DNA from: Candidatus Methylospira mobilis
Lineage (GTDB): Bacteria > Pseudomonadota > Gammaproteobacteria > Methylococcales > Methylococcaceae
DNA: 64,000 nt
Direction of reading: 5' to 3'
NCBI RefSeq assembly: GCF_009498235.1
Contig: NZ_CP044205.1
Span: 739,716 to 803,715, forward strand
Both the position numbers and the translations under genes were made by a program. Positions 22,542-51,857 of the stretch are shown piece by piece; position 1 is the first letter of the stretch, and each line of letters starts with the position of its first letter. The notes beneath the pieces are model-generated. The model made no database searches, was not told where the DNA came from, and saw only the letters and a list, made by a program, of their open reading frames with translations.

Positions 22542-24296
22542 TCAGCGCGTCGCGCAAAACCCGAACTGAGTTGTTCCTCCCGCCGAAATAACGTTGTTTT
22601 GTCCGCTGATACTGCTGGCAGTCAACGTGCTGCCTGATTGCGTATAAACCGCATTCCACAGATTGTTGATTCTACCGCCGACCTGCTGCGTGACCTGCCA
22701 GGATTGCGTTGCGGTATTTCCGCCATTAGTGACGTTTACCTGCGCGCAATAGCCTGCACCCCAATCAGAACTGATCGACAACACGCTAGTGATCCCGTTA
22801 GTCGAGGTTGCGGGAGCCGCCGGTGCGGAAGTCGTAGTCGAAGTAGAAGCCGGACGAGTCGCGCAGAATCCAAAAGTCACTGATGCGCCACTCGCGACGG
22901 TATTATTCCAGCTCAGTCCGGAAGCGAGCAGTTCGCTGCCGCTTTGCGTATAGCCGGCATTCCACAGATTATTGACGGTGCCTTGAATCGTAACCGAGGT
23001 ATTCCAGAAGACCGTGGCAGGCGTCGAATTGAGCACCGTGACCGTAGCACAATAGCCGGTTCCCCAGTCCGAATTAATTGTCGTTTTCCCGGCCAGTGAA
23101 GTAGTCCCAGTCGGGGTGGGCGGCGTTACCACCGGAGTAGTGGTAGTAGTCGGTTGGGTGGTAGTCGTTGTCGTCGTTCCCGAGCCTGAAAGTCCCCATA
23201 AACTGGCTAACAGATTGACTTTATCCTGCCAGACCGCTGTCCAATCGTCCTGGAGTATCCCTCCGGTATCGCCGCTGTTCGGATTCCAGCTCCAGTAGAA
23301 TAAATTGGTGATGCCCTTACCTTTAAGGTAGGCAATCAAGGCATTCTGAAATTTGACATCTTTCGGATCGCCGCCGTGACCGTACTTACCGCCGATTTCA
23401 CCGATTGCGAGGGTATATCCGGCTTTTTTAAACTGGCCGAAATGCGCATCCCAGATAGCAGGCATGTTATCCGGAAAGGTTGGGTCGCTGAAGTAGGTTT
23501 GCTCGTAGACGTCCGGACCGTAAACATGCGGGGCCAGCACCAGTTTATTGGAAGGTATATTGAGCGGATAACAGGATAGCGGTTCGAGGTTACCGCCCCA
23601 CCAGTGGGCGGTCGTTCCGCTGCATACCGGGTTTCCCTCTACGCCCTCGACAAAGACCAGAATATCCGGCGCAGCGTTCAACACGGCGGTTGCTGCCATT
23701 GCCGCAGCGCCGTTCCAATCGGTCGAGGCATTTCCCGTTCCCCAGGTTGCAGCGCCGTGCGGTTCGTTTTTCAAATCGATCCCGATAAAATGCGGGAGCG
23801 ATTTGTAACGATTCGCCATAAACTTCAGATCGCTTATCCAGCTTTGCGCCGAATAGTCGGATTCGTACCAAAGTTCGGAAATGCCCGCATTGCAATTCAG
23901 CCTATGATGATCGAGCAGAATATAAAACTGCTGGCGATCGAATTCGGCGAGTACCGCATCCAGAATCTGCAGGGAGTTTTTTCCGACAAGGTCGGGATTC
24001 AATGTGCGGTCGTAGTTGGTGGCGCTGGCGCCTACCAAGGTGTCCGGACAAACCGGTATTCTTACCGCATTAAACCCGAGGGATTTCATCTGGTCAATCA
24101 TGCTCTGCCAGTTTCGGGCCCACAAACCATTCACGATACGGTCGGACGTTTCGAAGCCGAACCAGTTAACGCCTTGCAATTGAATCGGATGATTGGCGTC
24201 ATCGTAGACGGTACCGTCCTGAACCGTATAGGCATGTACCCCCGCAGTCCAGAACAATAATGATATGACTGCAGTTTTTACCAAGGATATTTTCAT
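22542..24296 (-). CDS. Secreted GH5 endoglucanase with two CBM2-like modules
   Basis: A 584-residue secreted enzyme. Signal peptide 1-22; GH5 catalytic domain about 23-370 with LQGVNWFGFET, acid/base E178 in DLKNEPH and nucleophile E300 in AIGEIGG. A Thr-rich linker (371-400) is followed by a CBM2-like module (about 404-481), a Ser/Thr/Ala linker and a second CBM2-like module (about 503-584). Each module begins with SDWGxGYCA and ends in FGFCATR, implying a disulfide. The likely activity is endo-beta-1,4-glucanase. Monocistronic. The architecture is plant-degrader-like and unexpected here. Confidence 0.88.
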   Translation of the reverse strand: MKISLVKTAVISLLFWTAGVHAYTVQDGTVYDDANHPIQLQGVNWFGFETSDRIVNGLWARNWQSMIDQMKSLGFNAVRIPVCPDTLVGASATNYDRTLNPDLVGKNSLQILDAVLAEFDRQQFYILLDHHRLNCNAGISELWYESDYSAQSWISDLKFMANRYKSLPHFIGIDLKNEPHGAATWGTGNASTDWNGAAAMAATAVLNAAPDILVFVEGVEGNPVCSGTTAHWWGGNLEPLSCYPLNIPSNKLVLAPHVYGPDVYEQTYFSDPTFPDNMPAIWDAHFGQFKKAGYTLAIGEIGGKYGHGGDPKDVKFQNALIAYLKGKGITNLFYWSWNPNSGDTGGILQDDWTAVWQDKVNLLASLWGLSGSGTTTTTTTQPTTTTTPVVTPPTPTGTTSLAGKTTINSDWGTGYCATVTVLNSTPATVFWNTSVTIQGTVNNLWNAGYTQSGSELLASGLSWNNTVASGASVTFGFCATRPASTSTTTSAPAAPATSTNGITSVLSISSDWGAGYCAQVNVTNGGNTATQSWQVTQQVGGRINNLWNAVYTQSGSTLTASSISGQNNVISAGGTTQFGFCATR

Positions 24297-24890: not shown

Positions 24891-25357
24891 ATGGAGCGTG
24901 AAATCTTAAAAAAGTCCGCAGTCTTTTTTGCGAAAGAAGCCGAATAAAGTACGGGTTTATTCAGGCGCAACAGAAGACGTATCCAGTGACCGTACTTTGC
25001 CGAGTGATGCAGGTGAGTACCCGTGCGTATTATGAATGGTTAAAAGTCCCTCAGGACAGCGACAGGAATCAACAGGTTGCCGAGAGGGCGAGGCAGATTT
25101 TTATCGACAATAAACAGTGCCTTGGTTCGCGTCGTTTAGCGGATCGATTGCAAAAACAGGGTTTTACCCTTGGGCGTTTTAAAACGCGGCGCATCATGCG
25201 GGAATTAAAATTGAAGGTTCGCTATCCCAGGCGAGTTAAAGTCACTACCGATAGCAAGCATAACGAGGCCATTTCGCCCAACCGCCTGGACCGGCAATTC
25301 CAGGTTGCCAAGCCCAATCAAGTATGGACGACCGATATTACCTACGTGTGGACCCTG
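24891..25357 (+). mobile_element. IS3-family remnant (orfA end and truncated orfB)
   Basis: The end of orfA (MEREILKKSAVFFAKEAE, stop at 24947) is followed in another frame by orfB from about 24947. OrfB shows the HTH_21 region (RVMQVSTRAYYEWLK, CLGSRRLADRLQKQG) and the first catalytic motif NQVWTTDITYV. It is cut there, losing the rest of the DDE domain, and joins an IS110 fragment. Confidence 0.8.
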
Positions 25358-25359
25358 CT

Positions 25360-25640
25360 TGTTCCTCAATCTGAAAGAGATGGATCGTCAGGTAGAAGAG
25401 CTGGAACAGCAGATACGCCTCTGGCATCGGGATGACGAAGCCAGCCGCAAACTGGAAGCGATACCCGGCATCGGGTCGATCACCGCCAGTGCGTTAGTCG
25501 CTACGGTAGGTCAGGCGCGCGAGTTCAAGGATGGCCGGCGGCTGGGACTGATAAAAGGAGCAACGTCGCAGATTACGCAGGCAATCAGAAAATGATGGCG
25601 AGACAGGTCAGACCGTGAGTGGGAAAAGTCCGGTCAACTT
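25360..25640 (+). mobile_element. IS110-family remnant (Transposase_20 part)
   Basis: The frame ending at 25595 encodes LNLKEMDRQVEELEQQIRLW and EAIPGIGSITASALVATVG, the C-terminal helix-hairpin-helix of IS110 transposases. It breaks off after FKDGRRL, where the family normally continues with a conserved Ser-containing region. The next ~150 bp look like IS110 3' flank. Right limit uncertain. Confidence 0.7.
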
Positions 25641-27054: not shown

Positions 27055-28605
27055 ATGATACATAAATACATAGAGCGCATACTGAAAGCGCGCGTTTACG
27101 ATGTGGCTGTTGAAACGCCGCTTGATTATGCCGCCAATCTGTCGAAACGTCTGGACAACTCCGTTTATTTGAAGCGTGAAGACATGCAGCAGGTATTTTC
27201 GTTCAAGCTGCGCGGAGCCTATAACAAAATCGCATCGCTGACCGACGATGAAAAGAAAGCGGGCGTGATCGCCGCATCAGCAGGCAACCATGCCCAAGGC
27301 GTCGCGCTGGCCGCAAGCAAGCTGGGTATTACTGCAATCATCGTCATGCCTTGCACCACGCCGCATATCAAGGTGCAGGCGGTGCACAATCTGGGCGGTC
27401 AGTCGATATTGCATGGCGACAGCTATGACGAGGCCTGTGAATATGCCAGAACATTGGCCGAAGAACGGCATCTTACCTTTGTCCATCCTTACGATGATCC
27501 GGAAGTCATCGCCGGACAAGGCACCATCGCCATGGAAATTCTGCGCCAGCACGGCGGCCCGATAAACGCCATTTTTGTGCCGGTGGGCGGCGGCGGACTA
27601 ATTGCCGGCATTGCCGCTTATGTCAAATTCCTCAGGCCGGAAACGCGGATTATCGGCGTGGAGCCGGACGACGCCGATTGCCTGAATCAGGCCATGAAAG
27701 CCGCCCGGCGCGTTACCTTGAAACAGGTCGGGCTGTTTGCCGACGGCGTCGCCGTCAAGCAGATCGGTAGGGAAACCTTCAAGCTCGCGCAGCACACCGT
27801 CGATGCCGTCATTACCGTCAGCACCGACGAAATCTGCGCCGCTATCAAGGATATCTTCGAAGACACGCGTTCCATAGCGGAACCGGCAGGAGCGCTGGCG
27901 CTGGCCGGATTGAAAAAGTACGTGGAGGAAAACGCGGTTGCGCGGCAGACCCTGATCGCAATCGAAAGCGGCGCCAATATCAACTTCGACCGTCTGCGGC
28001 ACGTGGCTGAGCGCGCGCAAAGAGGCGAGCACAGGGAACTGCTGCTGGCTGTGACCATTCCGGAACAGCCCGGCAGCTTCCTGAAGTTCTGCCGGCGTCT
28101 GGATAAACGCAGCATCACCGAGTTCAACTATCGTTACAGCGACCCGCAACAAGCCCACGTTTTTGCAGGACTCCAGGTCAGTAACACCGGAGAGGATAAA
28201 ACAGCGCTGATCCGGGGGCTGGAGGACGAGGGATTTGGCGTCACCGACATGACCGGCAACGAACTTGCAATCGAGCATATTCGTTACATGGTCGGAGGAC
28301 ATTCGCCTCATGCGCTGGATGAAGTTGTGTACAGTTTCGAGTTTCCCGAGCGTCCGGGCGCGCTGTTGCATTTCCTTACGCTGATGGGGACGCGGTGGAA
28401 CATCAGTCTGTTTCATTACCGCAACCACGGCGCGGCTTTCGGTCGCGTGCTGATGGCGATACAGGTTCCGCCCCGTGCGCGCCATGAGTTCAAGTCATTT
28501 CTGCATGAACTCGGTTATCAGCACAGGGAAGAAACCGATAACCCCGCCTATCGGCTTTTTGCAGGTCGAAACATGTCGGATAAAAGCGAGAAGGAACTAT
28601 TCTGA
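27055..28605 (+). CDS. ilvA: Threonine ammonia-lyase, biosynthetic
   Basis: A 516-residue PLP enzyme converting threonine to 2-oxobutyrate, the first step of isoleucine synthesis. PLP lysine K51 lies in FSFKLRGAY; the phosphate-binding GGGGL is in VPVGGGGLIAG. Two C-terminal ACT-like domains (about 335-500) provide feedback control by isoleucine/valine, as in the long IlvA type. The ATG at 27055 has AAAGGAG upstream; an ATG at 27010 would add 15 residues. Monocistronic. Confidence 0.93.
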   Translation: MIHKYIERILKARVYDVAVETPLDYAANLSKRLDNSVYLKREDMQQVFSFKLRGAYNKIASLTDDEKKAGVIAASAGNHAQGVALAASKLGITAIIVMPCTTPHIKVQAVHNLGGQSILHGDSYDEACEYARTLAEERHLTFVHPYDDPEVIAGQGTIAMEILRQHGGPINAIFVPVGGGGLIAGIAAYVKFLRPETRIIGVEPDDADCLNQAMKAARRVTLKQVGLFADGVAVKQIGRETFKLAQHTVDAVITVSTDEICAAIKDIFEDTRSIAEPAGALALAGLKKYVEENAVARQTLIAIESGANINFDRLRHVAERAQRGEHRELLLAVTIPEQPGSFLKFCRRLDKRSITEFNYRYSDPQQAHVFAGLQVSNTGEDKTALIRGLEDEGFGVTDMTGNELAIEHIRYMVGGHSPHALDEVVYSFEFPERPGALLHFLTLMGTRWNISLFHYRNHGAAFGRVLMAIQVPPRARHEFKSFLHELGYQHREETDNPAYRLFAGRNMSDKSEKELF

Positions 28606-28636
28606 CAGCGTTTGCCGGCAGATGAGGGTGAAACAC

Positions 28637-28681
28637 TGTTATCCCCCGTCTACGGCAGGGAGCCATAGACGGGATAGCAGT
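28637..28681. terminator. Hairpin between converging ilvA and the CuA-like gene
   Basis: CCCGTCTA (28645-28652) pairs with TAGACGGG (28666-28673), extended by TATC/GATA outside a small bulge. It lies between two converging stops and could terminate both transcripts, although no long T run follows. Confidence 0.45.
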
Positions 28682-28726
28682 GACGGTCCGGGGTTGATAT
28701 TCCCTGTCGAAAGATTTGGCTCTTCT

Positions 28727-29089
28727 TTAACTTTCCACGATAATTGCCCCCGCCATTTCTTCATGGCCCGAGCCGCAAAAAATATCGCAATAAAACATGA
28801 AGCTTCCTGTTTTGGTCGGCGTGATGCTTAATCTTATCTTTTGTCCTGGCGTGGCTTCGGCGCGAACTCCGAGTTCGGGGATGGCGAAGCCGTGCAGACG
28901 GTCCAGGGATTCGATTTCCAGAACGACGGTTTGCCCTTTTTTCAATACTATTTTGTTCGGTTGATAAAGAAACCGGCTCGCCTTGATGGAGATGACCGGT
29001 ACGTCCGCTGCGGAAGCTGTTTCAGCATAGGATGCATTCGTCTCCAGCAATAATGCGAGCAAGCTCGCGATCAGTAATCTGCCCTTCAT
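28727..29089 (-). CDS. Secreted CuA-type cupredoxin
   Basis: A 120-residue protein: signal peptide about 1-22, then a single cupredoxin domain. The C-terminal loop CDIFCGSGHEEM gives C-x3-C-x3-H-x2-M, the ligand set of the binuclear CuA centre of cytochrome oxidase subunit II and nitrous oxide reductase; the distant His is in RLHGFAIP. No membrane helix remains after processing, so it would be a soluble periplasmic CuA protein. Its start overlaps the phosphoesterase stop by 4 bp. Role (electron carrier or copper carrier) is open. Confidence 0.8.
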   Translation of the reverse strand: MKGRLLIASLLALLLETNASYAETASAADVPVISIKASRFLYQPNKIVLKKGQTVVLEIESLDRLHGFAIPELGVRAEATPGQKIRLSITPTKTGSFMFYCDIFCGSGHEEMAGAIIVES

Positions 29090-30012
29090 GGTTTTTCTCC
29101 CTCGCCAAGTACCTGTTCGTTAATCGCATAGTCATGTTTGCGTAAAGACGCTTTGACGTTTCTGAATCCCAAACCACTGTAAGGCTTGGCGGTATCCCAC
29201 GGAATCGGCGCGCGTTTGGGCGCCGAGCCGGGTGCGGGTAGCGGGAAGATCAGCGACTTGGCGGCGTAATGAGCAATATGCTCAGTTTTATACTGATGTT
29301 CCTGGTGAATATGCCCATAAAATACAGCGACGTTCCGGTGCGGAAGCAGCATCTCGATAGCCGCTTGTCCATCGCGCGTAAACCAGTCCCATTGCGGGTA
29401 TAAATCGAATAAGGGCCGATGAGTCAACACGACGATGGGCGCTTCGGGTTTGAGTTGTTCCAGATCCGCTTTAAGCCAGTCCAGTTGGGGTGCTCCCAGA
29501 TTCGCCGCTGGATCGGATACGTTATCCAGAACGATGAAATGGATGCCCTTGTGATCGAAACTGTAATGCAAGGGTCCGAAAAACTCCCTGTAGGCTTCGC
29601 CTTGATCCAGAGAGGCATCGTGTTCGCCGGGTATGAACCTGATGTTTTTGACACGCAGAGTGCTCACGATAGCGCTGAATTCTTTCATACGCTGCCGTCT
29701 TTGTTGGGGATCGTCGGTGGTATGAGTCAAATCGCCGGTAAACACGACAAAATCCGGCTGGTGTTTCAACGCATTAACGCGGTCGATTGCCTTGGGCAGG
29801 GTTAGCTGCGCATCGGGGTTGATCGCGTTACCGCTGAATCCCCAGTGTGTATCCGATAGCTGGACGAAGAAAAAGTCGTTATGATGGAGTTCCCCGCTTT
29901 TTCCATTTCCGTTTGTTTTGGCCATGACATCAAATCCCAGCCCGGAAGCGAACACGATACCGCCCAATCCGGTCAGTTTGAGAAAACTTCTTCGATCGAT
30001 AAAACTACGCAT
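29086..30012 (-). CDS. Tat-exported metallophosphoesterase
   Basis: A 308-residue calcineurin-like phosphoesterase. The N-terminus has a twin-arginine signal (DRRSFLKLTG). Metal-site motifs are SDTHW, GDLTH, GEHD (usually GNHD), LTHRP and GHIHQEH. The start at 30012 follows AGGAGG closely; a longer frame to 30051 would run through the promoter. First gene of a two-gene operon with the CuA-like protein, divergent from an ECF sigma gene and preceded by the same promoter motif. Substrate unknown. Confidence 0.87.
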   Translation of the reverse strand: MRSFIDRRSFLKLTGLGGIVFASGLGFDVMAKTNGNGKSGELHHNDFFFVQLSDTHWGFSGNAINPDAQLTLPKAIDRVNALKHQPDFVVFTGDLTHTTDDPQQRRQRMKEFSAIVSTLRVKNIRFIPGEHDASLDQGEAYREFFGPLHYSFDHKGIHFIVLDNVSDPAANLGAPQLDWLKADLEQLKPEAPIVVLTHRPLFDLYPQWDWFTRDGQAAIEMLLPHRNVAVFYGHIHQEHQYKTEHIAHYAAKSLIFPLPAPGSAPKRAPIPWDTAKPYSGLGFRNVKASLRKHDYAINEQVLGEGEKP

Positions 30013-30054
30013 GATGAAACCTCCTGTTGGAATCGCTGAATACTCAGTCAACTA

Positions 30055-30084
30055 CCTATACCGTTGCGCTACGGTGAATATTCC
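30055..30084 (-). promoter_or_regulatory. Putative ECF promoter of the phosphoesterase-CuA operon
   Basis: On the minus strand: GGAATA (30084-30079), 16 bp, GGTATAGG (30062-30055). The -10 edge lies 42 bp before the ATG at 30012. The motif and spacing are repeated on the other strand before the sigma factor gene. Confidence 0.6.
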
Positions 30085-30209
30085 CGATTACCAGGTTTAT
30101 TTCTGCAACGAAACAGCTTATCGGCGCGTAACGCAGTGGATTTGAGGCGTGCTTGGGAAGTTTTCTCTTGCCCGGCAACACGGAGCGTTGAGTTTTTTGA
30201 CATTTTCAA

Positions 30210-30239
30210 GGAATAAAACCGGGCTTGTAATGGTATTGG
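30210..30239 (+). promoter_or_regulatory. Putative autoregulatory ECF promoter of the sigma factor gene
   Basis: GGAATA (30210-30215), 16 bp, GGTATTGG (30232-30239), 28 bp before the TTG start at 30268. It matches the divergent motif in both boxes and spacer length. Confidence 0.6.
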
Positions 30240-30267
30240 TGATGTATCAGTCAGGAAAGGCGGGCGA

Positions 30268-30825
30268 TTGACCGAACAGAATAAAACTCAGCGTTTCAAC
30301 AAACTTGCGTTACAGCATCTGGACGCCGCTTACAATCTGGCCAGATGGCTGACCCGGAATTCACCGGATGCCGAAGACGTTGTGCAGGAAAGCTTGTTGA
30401 AGGCGTTCCGTCACTTCGACGGTTTCAGGGGAGGCAACGGCAAGGCATGGTTCCTGACCATCGTCAGAAATTCAAGCTATACCTGGCTGAAATCCCAAAA
30501 AGGGTTCCAACAGGAATCCTTCGATGAAGGTTGCGATTATGATGATTTCAATCCTCAATTTCCCGGTGCGGTTTCGTGGGCGAGCGATCCCGAGCAACTT
30601 GTGCTGCAGGAAGCCAACCGGGAGCTGATCGATGCCGCAATCCGGGCGCTGCCTGCTGAATTTCGCGAAGTCCTGGTGTTGCGAGAGCTGGAGGATTTTT
30701 CCTATAAGGAGATTGCCGCAATTACCGGGAGACCGGTTGGTACGGTGATGTCACGGCTGGCCAGGTCACGCGCACTGCTGCGCCGTATGCTTGCACAGCA
30801 TTTTTCCGTGGAGTCTGCAAGATGA
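30268..30825 (+). CDS. ECF-type RNA polymerase sigma factor
   Basis: A 185-residue sigma-70 family protein. Region 2 (about 10-80) holds SPDAEDVVQESLLKAFRHFD; region 4 (about 125-180) holds LPAEFREVLVLRELEDFSYK and GTVMSRLARSR. The start is a TTG with GGAAAGG upstream; no in-frame ATG fits. The stop overlaps the anti-sigma start by 4 bp. Likely drives both its own operon and the divergent phosphoesterase operon. Confidence 0.9.
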   Translation: MTEQNKTQRFNKLALQHLDAAYNLARWLTRNSPDAEDVVQESLLKAFRHFDGFRGGNGKAWFLTIVRNSSYTWLKSQKGFQQESFDEGCDYDDFNPQFPGAVSWASDPEQLVLQEANRELIDAAIRALPAEFREVLVLRELEDFSYKEIAAITGRPVGTVMSRLARSRALLRRMLAQHFSVESAR

Positions 30826-31583
30826 ATTGTCAGGATGTCGAAATTCACATACATGGCTTTCTTGACAGGGAGCTGGAGCTCGGCGCAACGCTGGAGGTCG
30901 AGTCCCACCTGGAAACCTGCACGTCCTGCCGGATGAAATTTCAGGAGTTGAGTGCAATGCGCACCGCTATGCAGGACGCAATGAGCTATCATCGTGCGCC
31001 GGATTCCCTGCGCGCGTTGCTGCAAAAGCCGCCTTATAGTGTCCGCGAGCAAAACCGGAAGCAGCATAAGTCGCTGTTTGCGCCATGGCGGATGCTTGCT
31101 TCCGTCTCTGCCGTGGCGGTTCTGTTTCTTGCCGTCGGCATTGGCTTGCAATTGCAGGAGGAAGCACCGCTGGACCGGTTATCCGAAGAGGTTGTCGCCA
31201 GCCATGTGCGTTCGCTCCTGGCTGCGCACTTGACCGATGTCGCCTCCTCGGACCGGCATACGGTGAAGCCCTGGTTCGAAGGCAAGCTTGATTTCTCGCC
31301 GCCAGTTGTCGATCTGAGCGGGCAGGGGTTTCCTCTAATCGGCGGACGTCTGGATTATCTGAACGCCAGAGCGGTTACCGCGCTGATCTATCGGCGTAGA
31401 CAACATGTGATCAATGTCTTTATCTGGCCCAAGGATGCGGATGAACCGCAAGTGGAATACAATGTGACTCGCAAAGGCTATAACGTGATTTCATTCAAAT
31501 CCGGTGAAATGAACTACTGGGTTGTTTCCGACCTGAATAAAAAAGAGCTTGCGGAGCTGGGCAATCTTTTACATGCGCCGTAG
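30822..31583 (+). CDS. Membrane anti-sigma factor with zinc-finger-like domain
   Basis: A 253-residue protein. The cytoplasmic N-terminal domain has the HxxxCxxC zinc anti-sigma signature (HLETCTSC) preceded by a conserved Cys-Gln (NCQDVE). A transmembrane helix follows at about 88-108 (MLASVSAVAVLFLAVGIGL), then a ~145-residue periplasmic sensor domain with conserved VVDLSGQGFPLIGGRLDY. The 4-bp overlap with the sigma gene makes them a pair: the anti-sigma holds the sigma factor until a periplasmic signal arrives. Signal unknown. Confidence 0.88.
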   Translation: MNCQDVEIHIHGFLDRELELGATLEVESHLETCTSCRMKFQELSAMRTAMQDAMSYHRAPDSLRALLQKPPYSVREQNRKQHKSLFAPWRMLASVSAVAVLFLAVGIGLQLQEEAPLDRLSEEVVASHVRSLLAAHLTDVASSDRHTVKPWFEGKLDFSPPVVDLSGQGFPLIGGRLDYLNARAVTALIYRRRQHVINVFIWPKDADEPQVEYNVTRKGYNVISFKSGEMNYWVVSDLNKKELAELGNLLHAP

Positions 31584-31672
31584 CAGGAGAACGATTTATC
31601 TGTCGTAGACTATGTTCTGTTGACATAAAACGAAAGTGAATAAATTAGTTAGTTAGCGTGATGTCGTCAGAA

Positions 31673-31701
31673 TCAGCCCCCGGGCTTGCTCCGGGGGCTG
31701 A
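31673..31701. terminator. Strong hairpin after the sigma/anti-sigma operon
   Basis: TCAGCCCCCGG (31673-31683) pairs perfectly with CCGGGGGCTGA (31691-31701) around a 7-nt loop, 90 bp past the anti-sigma stop and before the converging pilT. No T tract follows, so it may be a transcript-stabilising or bidirectional stem. Confidence 0.5.
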
Positions 31702-49697: not shown

Positions 49698-51857
49698 TTA
49701 CTGCGCCGTCAGCACCTGCTCGAACTCGCCGGCCGGCAACGGTTTGGAGAATAGATAGCCCTGGCAGTAATCGCAGCCGAGCTGCGCGAGGAGCGTGCTT
49801 TGCTGCTTGGTTTCAACGCCTTCGGCGATGACGCTCAGGTTCAGTTTGTGCGCCATCGCAACCATGGCTTCCGCCAGCATGTAGCTGTTGGAGTTGGGCT
49901 CAAAGTTGCGCACGAAAGAAGGGTCTATCTTCAAAAAGTCGATATCGAATTTTTTCAGATAGGACAAGGATGAGTAGCCGCTGCCGAAATTGTCGATCGC
50001 CATTTGGATCGCGTTGTCGCGGAATAAAAAAAGCTTCCTGGTGGTAATGGCGTCCGTGTCGATCAGCAAGTCTTCGCTGATGTCGACGTTGATGCTGTTT
50101 CCGGGCAGTCCCAGCTCATGCAAATGCCGTATCCAGCTATCAAAATCCTTGCCGTTGCTGCGAAATTGCACTGGCGACATGTTCAGGCTGATCTGGAAAT
50201 GTTCATAGCCGGGCAGCTGCCGCCAGCGCCTGGCCTGGTTAGCCGCCTGTATGAAGACCCATTCGCCCAAACCATGTATCGTGCCGCTCTCTTCGGCAAT
50301 GGGAATGAAAACGGCTGGACTAATCACGCCGAGCTCGGGGTGCCGCCAATGCAGAAACGCTTCCGCCTTGTGAATATGGCCGGTTGCCAGCTCGACGATA
50401 GGCTGGAAATAGATGTGCAACTGACCGCGTTCCTGCGCATGACGCAAATCCTTGTCCAGGCGTGTGCGCATCATGACTGATTCCTGCATGTCGGCGGTAA
50501 AGGTCCGGTAACTGTTGCGCCCGCCGTCCTTGGCTGCATACATGGCCTGATCGGCGCATTTAAGCAGGTCTTCGACGCTACGTGCATCGTCAGGGCAGAG
50601 CGTAATGCCGATGCTGGCCGAAACATAGGCCTCGTCCTTGTCCAGTTGAAACGGCTGGGACAGACTGTCCAGGATGTTCTGGGCGACACGATCCATATTG
50701 GATATTTCGTGCAGATCGTCGAGAATAACGGTAAATTCGTCGCCGCCCAGACGCGCAACGGTATCGGACTCGCGCACGCAATTTTTGATTCGTCTGGCCG
50801 CTTCCACCAGCAGCAAGTCGCCCTGATGGTGTCCCAGCGTGTCGTTGACCTCCTTGAAGTGGTCGAGGTCGATATACATGACGCCTACGCGGCGATTGAT
50901 ACGCTGACCTTTTTTTACGGTATGCTCCAGACGGTCCATGAATAAGCGCCGGTTGGGAAGTTGCGTCAACTCGTCGAAGTTGGCCTGGAACTGGATCATG
51001 GAGAGAAAACGCTTTTGTTCGGTAATGTCCGAGAACAAGGCTACGCGCTGGTGTATTGAGCCGGTTTCATCGTAAATGCTGTTGATAACCAGGCGTACCG
51101 CATATTCCTCTCCGTTTTTGTGCCGGTTCCAGATTTCGCCATTCCACTTGCCGGTGCTGTTCAGGCTGCGCCACATGTGCTGGAAAAACATGTCTTCATG
51201 TCTGCCCGAGCCCAGTATTTTGGGGTCCTTGCCCGCGACTTCCTCAAAACTGTACCCGGTCAGAGCGGTGAAGGCGGGGTTGACTGCCATTATGCGATTG
51301 TTGGCATCGGTCAGCGTCATGGCTTCGCTGCTGGCGTTATAAACCAGTCCTGCTACCTGGAGCTGTTCGCGCGCATTGCGGTGTTCTATGGTTTCCAGTT
51401 TAAGCTGGCGTTCCTGCCGGGCCTGTTTGGCGTAGTTGCCTATCCGCGCCTTGGTAATGGCGAGAGCGAAAGGTTTAATAAGGTAGTCAGCCGCACCCGC
51501 CTTCAGTCCCAGCGCTTCGTCATGAGCATTGTTTTTATCCATAATCAGCAGCACGGGAATATGACCGGTTAGCTCGTTCTGTTTAATTTTGCGACATACT
51601 TCGAAGCCGTTTACTTCCGGCATGACGGCTTCCAGCAGGATCAGGTCAGGCAACTCTTCCGTGTCGAGCAGCGACAAGGCTTCCGTTCCCGAGTAGGCGA
51701 ACTGCACGTCGAAATCGCGTTCAAGCATTTTCCGCAGTGTGGCGATGCCTTGCAATTCAGTGTCGACAATCAGGATACGCGCCGGTTTAGGATTTACGCC
51801 ATTTCCGTTATGACGGTTCAAGTCGGCAACATAATGGGTAAGCGTTTCAGTTGCCAT
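49698..51857 (-). CDS. REC-PAS-GGDEF-EAL signalling protein
   Basis: A 719-residue cyclic-di-GMP protein. REC domain (about 27-140), with Glu76 (LILLEAVMPE) where the phosphoacceptor Asp should be. PAS domain about 170-290. GGDEF domain about 300-460 with an intact RLGGDEF active site. EAL domain about 470-715: signature EAF instead of EAL, and IDNFGSGYSSL instead of IDDFG, so one metal-binding Asp is Asn; other ligands (SLNMSPVQF, ISEDLL, AEGVE, CQGY) remain. Likely a diguanylate cyclase with impaired phosphodiesterase. Monocistronic. Confidence 0.88.
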   Translation of the reverse strand: MATETLTHYVADLNRHNGNGVNPKPARILIVDTELQGIATLRKMLERDFDVQFAYSGTEALSLLDTEELPDLILLEAVMPEVNGFEVCRKIKQNELTGHIPVLLIMDKNNAHDEALGLKAGAADYLIKPFALAITKARIGNYAKQARQERQLKLETIEHRNAREQLQVAGLVYNASSEAMTLTDANNRIMAVNPAFTALTGYSFEEVAGKDPKILGSGRHEDMFFQHMWRSLNSTGKWNGEIWNRHKNGEEYAVRLVINSIYDETGSIHQRVALFSDITEQKRFLSMIQFQANFDELTQLPNRRLFMDRLEHTVKKGQRINRRVGVMYIDLDHFKEVNDTLGHHQGDLLLVEAARRIKNCVRESDTVARLGGDEFTVILDDLHEISNMDRVAQNILDSLSQPFQLDKDEAYVSASIGITLCPDDARSVEDLLKCADQAMYAAKDGGRNSYRTFTADMQESVMMRTRLDKDLRHAQERGQLHIYFQPIVELATGHIHKAEAFLHWRHPELGVISPAVFIPIAEESGTIHGLGEWVFIQAANQARRWRQLPGYEHFQISLNMSPVQFRSNGKDFDSWIRHLHELGLPGNSINVDISEDLLIDTDAITTRKLFLFRDNAIQMAIDNFGSGYSSLSYLKKFDIDFLKIDPSFVRNFEPNSNSYMLAEAMVAMAHKLNLSVIAEGVETKQQSTLLAQLGCDYCQGYLFSKPLPAGEFEQVLTAQ

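Follow-up and report, generated by a model that had tools for sequence, protein, structure and literature searches.

Paired GGAATA-N16-GGTAT sites as predicted promoters of an ECF sigma factor and a divergent phosphoesterase–CuA operon in Candidatus Methylospira mobilis

We analyzed a 64,000-nucleotide stretch of the Candidatus Methylospira mobilis genome (hereafter the window). The motif GGAATA-N16-GGTAT occurs once on each strand in the 254-bp region between two divergent operons, and each copy faces its own gene. With a probability of about 0.9, we consider both sites to be divergent promoters recognized by the product of the ECF sigma gene at 30268-30825; this factor would drive its own operon and the phosphoesterase–CuA operon. 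A first-pass annotation had proposed that the sigma factor autoregulates and controls the neighboring operon. This proposal is now strongly supported by sequence comparison, as the sites are conserved in relatives and absent from loci without the sigma gene. The features of the locus are as follows.

28727..29089, minus strand: secreted CuA-type cupredoxin, 120 aa (Pfam Cupredoxin_1 and COX2, CuA alignment)
29086..30012, minus strand: Tat-type metallophosphoesterase, 308 aa, leading the divergent operon (Pfam Metallophos, RR signal, alignment)
30055..30084, minus strand: predicted ECF promoter of the phosphoesterase–cupredoxin operon (GGAATA 30084-30079, spacer 16, GGTAT(AGG) 30062-30055)
30210..30239, plus strand: predicted ECF promoter of the sigma/anti-sigma operon (GGAATA 30210-30215, spacer 16, GGTAT(TGG) 30232-30239)
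30268..30825, plus strand: ECF sigma factor, 185 aa, TTG start (Pfam, NCBIfam, region 4.2 alignment)
30822..31583, plus strand: anti-sigma factor, 253 aa (Pfam zf-HC2, alignment, structure model, fold comparison)

The gene identities read in the first pass (ECF sigma factor, phosphoesterase, and CuA protein) hold in Pfam searches and alignments.

Two facing sites and their conservation in relatives

The minus-strand site (30084..30055) reads GGAATA-TTCACCGTAGCGCAAC-GGTATAGG, and the plus-strand site (30210..30239) reads GGAATA-AAACCGGGCTTGTAAT-GGTATTGG. Both sites, with their identical 16-nt spacer, are exactly as first noted, and both lie at promoter distance: the start of the -35 element is 72 nt from the phosphoesterase ATG (30012) and 58 nt from the sigma TTG (30268), respectively. 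A search of 29950-30330 for sigma-70-like promoters returned none, and 28500-31700 contained no Rfam element.

The scan of species genomes yielded 29 loci with the phosphoesterase, and searches of plasmids and of order- and class-level genomes added more. In sigma-linked relatives, GGAATA-N16-NGT was present upstream of 23 of the 28 phosphoesterase genes (shuffle mean 0.08), 45-141 nt before the start codon. It was also present upstream of 20 of the 30 orthologous sigma genes (shuffle mean 0.06). The spacer was almost always exactly 16; spacers of 14, 15, 17, and 18 made up 3 cases in total. Many divergons kept both copies, e.g., L005, L009, L011, L063, L064, L071, L075, L076, L077, and L079. 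The conservation check proposed in the first pass was thus run, and it returned both copies in orthologous divergons with the same spacing and gene distance. The exact site was absent from 5 of the 28 phosphoesterase regions and 10 of the 30 sigma regions, some of which held a site with one mismatch. Some of the sigma genes lie inside the same operon and would therefore need no promoter of their own.

Among the 14 phosphoesterase loci without this sigma gene in the fetched stretch, none had the motif, with the caveat that for L007, L012, and L072-L074 the fetched DNA is short and a sigma gene could lie further away. Seven of the 14 are close relatives. Three of these seven, L072-L074, come from the same order as the window; their phosphoesterase is 68% identical to that of the window, and the cupredoxin gene is still attached. 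Fisher tests of motif against sigma presence gave 2e-7 for all 14 sigma-less loci and 1e-4 for the close seven; these values are optimistic because the loci compared are related to one another; L004 and L074, for example, seem to belong to one species. At the level of sequence comparison, the support from the upstream regions of relatives is overwhelming.

The locus was found in 7 of 301 genomes of the order and 4 of 369 of the class, a patchy distribution that points to loss or horizontal transfer. At 24986-25595 of the window, a few kb from the divergon, there are fragments of an insertion-sequence transposase (HTH_21), and a gene for a GH5 cellulase with two cellulose-binding domains is found nearby (22542-24296). 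A search for defense systems gave no match of note. In one relative (L076:1334-2250), the phosphoesterase gene is apparently split by a frame change near the N-terminus, with both promoters and the sigma gene intact.

The 44 collected sites gave the consensus (c)GGGAATAAA-N13-(g)GT(A/C/T)(T/A), with GGGAATAAA-N13-(G)GT(A/C/T) as the conserved informative core; GGAATA and GT were required when the sites were gathered, and these columns are therefore fixed by construction. The columns independent of this selection were the G preceding GGAATA (35/44), the AA after it (35/44 and 34/44), and the weaker positions around GT. The base after GT was A in 21 sites, C in 14, and T in 9; both window sites have GTA. 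The -10 element first noted, GGTATNGG, is present at both window sites, but its trailing GG is not conserved in relatives.

Genome scan for further targets

The 4.70-Mb genome was scanned with exact consensus patterns only. GGAATAN{15,17}GGTATNGG gave 3 matches, against 1 for the control orientation. The third match has an N15 spacer and lies inside an 846-codon ORF, and it was rejected as a target. A window site at 50021, antisense inside a GGDEF/EAL gene, was also rejected as a third target. The other genome matches examined were inside reading frames or without a usable start downstream, and none of them was a convincing promoter. Thus, the scan suggested in the first pass left only the two divergon sites, and the predicted regulon is this divergon alone.

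A larger regulon, of which the divergon is one part, would fit the main model except for this local-regulon claim. The pattern GGAATAAA-N15-GT matched the genome 12 times, compared with 3 times for the control pattern, which speaks for additional targets. In two relatives, a c-type cytochrome gene (L008:3458-3915 and L010:3460-3917) has its own predicted GGGAATAAA-N13-GGTAT promoter and is followed by the phosphoesterase, cupredoxin, sigma, and anti-sigma genes, suggesting a third target there and fitting a redox function. Against these points stand the unsuitable positions of all other matches examined with exact patterns, and we regard a larger regulon as unlikely.

The sigma factor and its predicted promoter recognition

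The 185-aa sigma factor consists of regions 2 and 4 only (Pfam Sigma70_r2, 15-78; r4_2, 119-171). With a co-encoded anti-sigma factor and a length in the range of about 170-200 aa, it has the layout of ECF (group 4) sigma factors. Its best NCBIfam model was PRK12533 with 210 bits, below the cut-off of 248; the Cupriavidus ortholog in L063 scored 300.7 bits on the same model. It is 28% identical to RpoE6, whose best models are PRK12511/PRK12546. By sequence, the sigma factor is nearer PRK12533 than RpoE6.

Region 4.2 contains GTVMSRL, which is invariant across the sigma family and common to Sinorhizobium meliloti RpoE6 (ECF26) and Mycobacterium tuberculosis SigH. Escherichia coli RpoE and the classical RpoE of the same genome have GTVRSRI instead. 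In Corynebacterium glutamicum sigma-H, Met170, the counterpart of the methionine in GTVMSRL (Met161), was modeled contacting positions -31/-30 of GGAAT promoters, and the M170R mutation impaired such promoters (PMC10012870). This contact and the effect of its mutation tie the sigma factor to the T that separates GGAATA from the GGAACTT of RpoE. The locus has GGAATA and GTVMSRL in place of the GGAACTT and the GTVRSRI arginine of classical RpoE systems.

The first-pass annotation had taken the motif as a recognition sequence of its own that differs from the RpoE boxes. The difference from RpoE stands, but the sequence is not new: it corresponds to the consensus GGAATA/GT published for ECF26 (PMC6180224), also given as GGAAT/CGTC (PMC6527743), and it is close to the SigH/SigR promoters, which have GGAAT and GTT at 16 nt (PMC3489674). 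Both window sites carry the ECF26 elements (-35 GGAATA, -10 GT) and lack the GTT of SigH/SigR. The genes that accompany ECF26 factors (an SMc01418-like lipoprotein, a divergent serine protease, and a sulfite oxidase) are not the neighbors here, which are the metallophosphoesterase and the CuA cupredoxin. Membership in ECF33 was considered and dropped, the EcfF motif being GTAAC-N14-15-CGT.

The sites could instead be read by a different sigma factor in the cell, e.g., classical RpoE, with the adjacent sigma gene merely another target. Cross-talk among ECF factors does occur, promoters are shared by ECF26 factors in S. meliloti (PMC6180224), and this genome holds a classical RpoE and other ECF-like matches. 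However, the sites track this particular sigma gene (23/28 where it is present, 0/14 where it is absent), and the RpoE of the genome, with its GTVRSRI, belongs to a class that reads GGAAC, not GGAAT (PMC10012870). Reading by another sigma factor is very unlikely.

Operator and chance explanations of the paired sites

The motif could also be the binding site of a repressor or an activator rather than a promoter, as divergent regions often hold shared operators and the two copies occupy a single intergenic region. The copies are not palindromic, though; they keep a strict 16-nt gap, each is oriented to its gene, the published ECF promoter boxes match, and the conserved regulatory neighbor is a sigma/anti-sigma pair. 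These features make an operator highly improbable.

In the 64-kb window, GGAATAN{15,17}GGTATNGG occurred at the two sites only, and it occurred 0 times in 100 shuffles; this pattern was picked post hoc, so a fairer shuffle test open to any word was needed. The 254-bp intergenic region was shuffled, and any 6+5 bipartite word on opposite strands with a spacing of 14-18 was counted, overlaps being barred. Some opposite-strand pair of this kind was present in 95 of 3000 shuffles (p ~0.03). Within the window alone, the pair is moderately improbable, and the case therefore rests on the relatives, for which the window had fixed the motif beforehand. Coincidence, for which that rate of about 3% speaks, has a negligible probability given that the sites are conserved in orthologous divergons with a protein identity of about 45-70%.

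The anti-sigma factor

The anti-sigma gene overlaps the sigma stop codon by 4 bp and is a conserved neighbor in relatives. The protein contains an N-terminal zinc-binding zf-HC2 domain, one transmembrane helix at about 90-110, and a periplasmic sensor domain at about 115-253. In the alignment, H128, D144, H146, and H195 of the periplasmic domain are invariant. The RsrA model scored the protein 36, against a cut-off of 62.5.

The structure of the anti-sigma factor was modeled with a mean pLDDT of 84. Its periplasmic domain resembled the C-terminal domain of RseB/MucB (Z 9.0, rmsd 3.0, 95 residues), somewhat above the unrelated entries of the comparison. The likeness is a resemblance of predicted folds and is not proof of function. 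Judging from the target genes and the invariant residues, copper or redox stress in the envelope is the likeliest signal for this domain to sense.

The phosphoesterase and the CuA-type cupredoxin

The cupredoxin gene overlaps the phosphoesterase stop codon by 4 bp. Residues H66, C101, C105, H109, and M112 of the cupredoxin align with the CuA ligands of cytochrome c oxidase (ba3-oxidase), giving the full ligand set of two Cys, two His, and Met. Three relatives (L005:4915-5271, L006:4910-5275, and L014:4948-5313) carry Met in place of the first His (H66), and their copper site must therefore differ.

A fold search with the phosphoesterase gave Rv0805 and GpdQ as the best matches. Metallophosphoesterases usually carry GNHD/E. 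The motif of this family is GEHD (GEND in one aligned relative), and all 17 aligned sequences keep its Glu. The phosphoesterase scored 43 bits on PRK11148 (cut-off 225) and 44 bits on SpdA (cut-off 400), far short of the CpdA and SpdA thresholds and of assignment as a 3',5'-cAMP/SpdA phosphodiesterase.

The exported phosphoesterase/CuA pair is apparently unstudied. Literature joining ECF sigma factors, anti-sigma factors, metallophosphoesterases, and cupredoxins was searched, and nothing was found on this locus. On a Mycobacteroides plasmid (L068:2167-4906), a different ECF sigma gene is accompanied by a gene for a Rieske-domain protein at the expected anti-sigma place, then by a cupredoxin gene and a related phosphoesterase gene. 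As a similar pair is found beside an unrelated ECF sigma factor, ECF control of the pair may have arisen in more than one lineage.

Comparison with known systems

By analogy, the closest parallel is S. meliloti RpoE4 with sorT–cytochrome c–azu2. RpoE4 controls itself and a neighboring operon for exported redox proteins that include a blue copper protein (PMC3511301). The shared features with ECF26/RpoE4 are the -35 GGAATA, the -10 GT, autoregulation, a small local regulon, and an adjacent anti-sigma factor, the regulatory ones being predicted here. In both cases, the products of the target operon are exported redox proteins with a copper protein among them; for RpoE4, this is a pseudoazurin. 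The targets differ in that a phosphoesterase and a CuA protein stand here in place of a sulfite dehydrogenase, and the typical -10 is GGTAT here, whereas it is CGTC/CGTT in ECF26.

SigH of M. tuberculosis and C. glutamicum and SigR of Streptomyces coelicolor have in common with this locus the -35 GGAAT, the 16-nt spacing, the GTVMSRL helix, and a zinc-finger anti-sigma factor. Their -10 is GTT, whereas the base after GT can be A, C, or T here, and a membrane helix and a periplasmic domain set the anti-sigma factor of this locus apart from theirs.

The RpoE–RseA–RseB system likewise combines an ECF sigma factor with an envelope anti-sigma factor, and it shares the RseB/MucB-like periplasmic domain (a predicted fold here). 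It differs in its -35 GGAACTT and in having Arg in region 4.2 where Met is found here. In addition, the RseB-like domain here is part of the anti-sigma factor itself, and the genome has a separate classical RpoE.

The phosphoesterase has the fold and most metal-site motifs of Rv0805 and GpdQ, and it differs from them in its Tat signal and GEHD.

Discussion

We propose that, at rest, the sigma factor would be held by the co-expressed zf-HC2 membrane anti-sigma factor. An envelope signal at the periplasmic domain of the anti-sigma factor would free it. RNA polymerase with the freed sigma factor would then transcribe both operons from the paired sites. Transcription of the sigma/anti-sigma operon would provide positive feedback with a built-in brake, and that of the divergent operon would supply the Tat-exported metallophosphoesterase and the secreted CuA-type cupredoxin.

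A broader proposal is tentative. The locus may be a patchy, probably horizontally moving module, in which the cis RseB-like anti-sigma factor (H128, D144, H146, H195) senses envelope copper/redox and induces a GEHD-type exported phosphoesterase and a soluble CuA carrier that act together.

The wiring is familiar in kind; the controlled genes and the sensed signal look unstudied. A motif noticed by eye has become a well-supported sigma–promoter pair through a strong comparative test. The locus is a compact, self-contained switch with a clear target list, with which the role of the phosphoesterase/CuA pair and the signal of the anti-sigma factor become testable.
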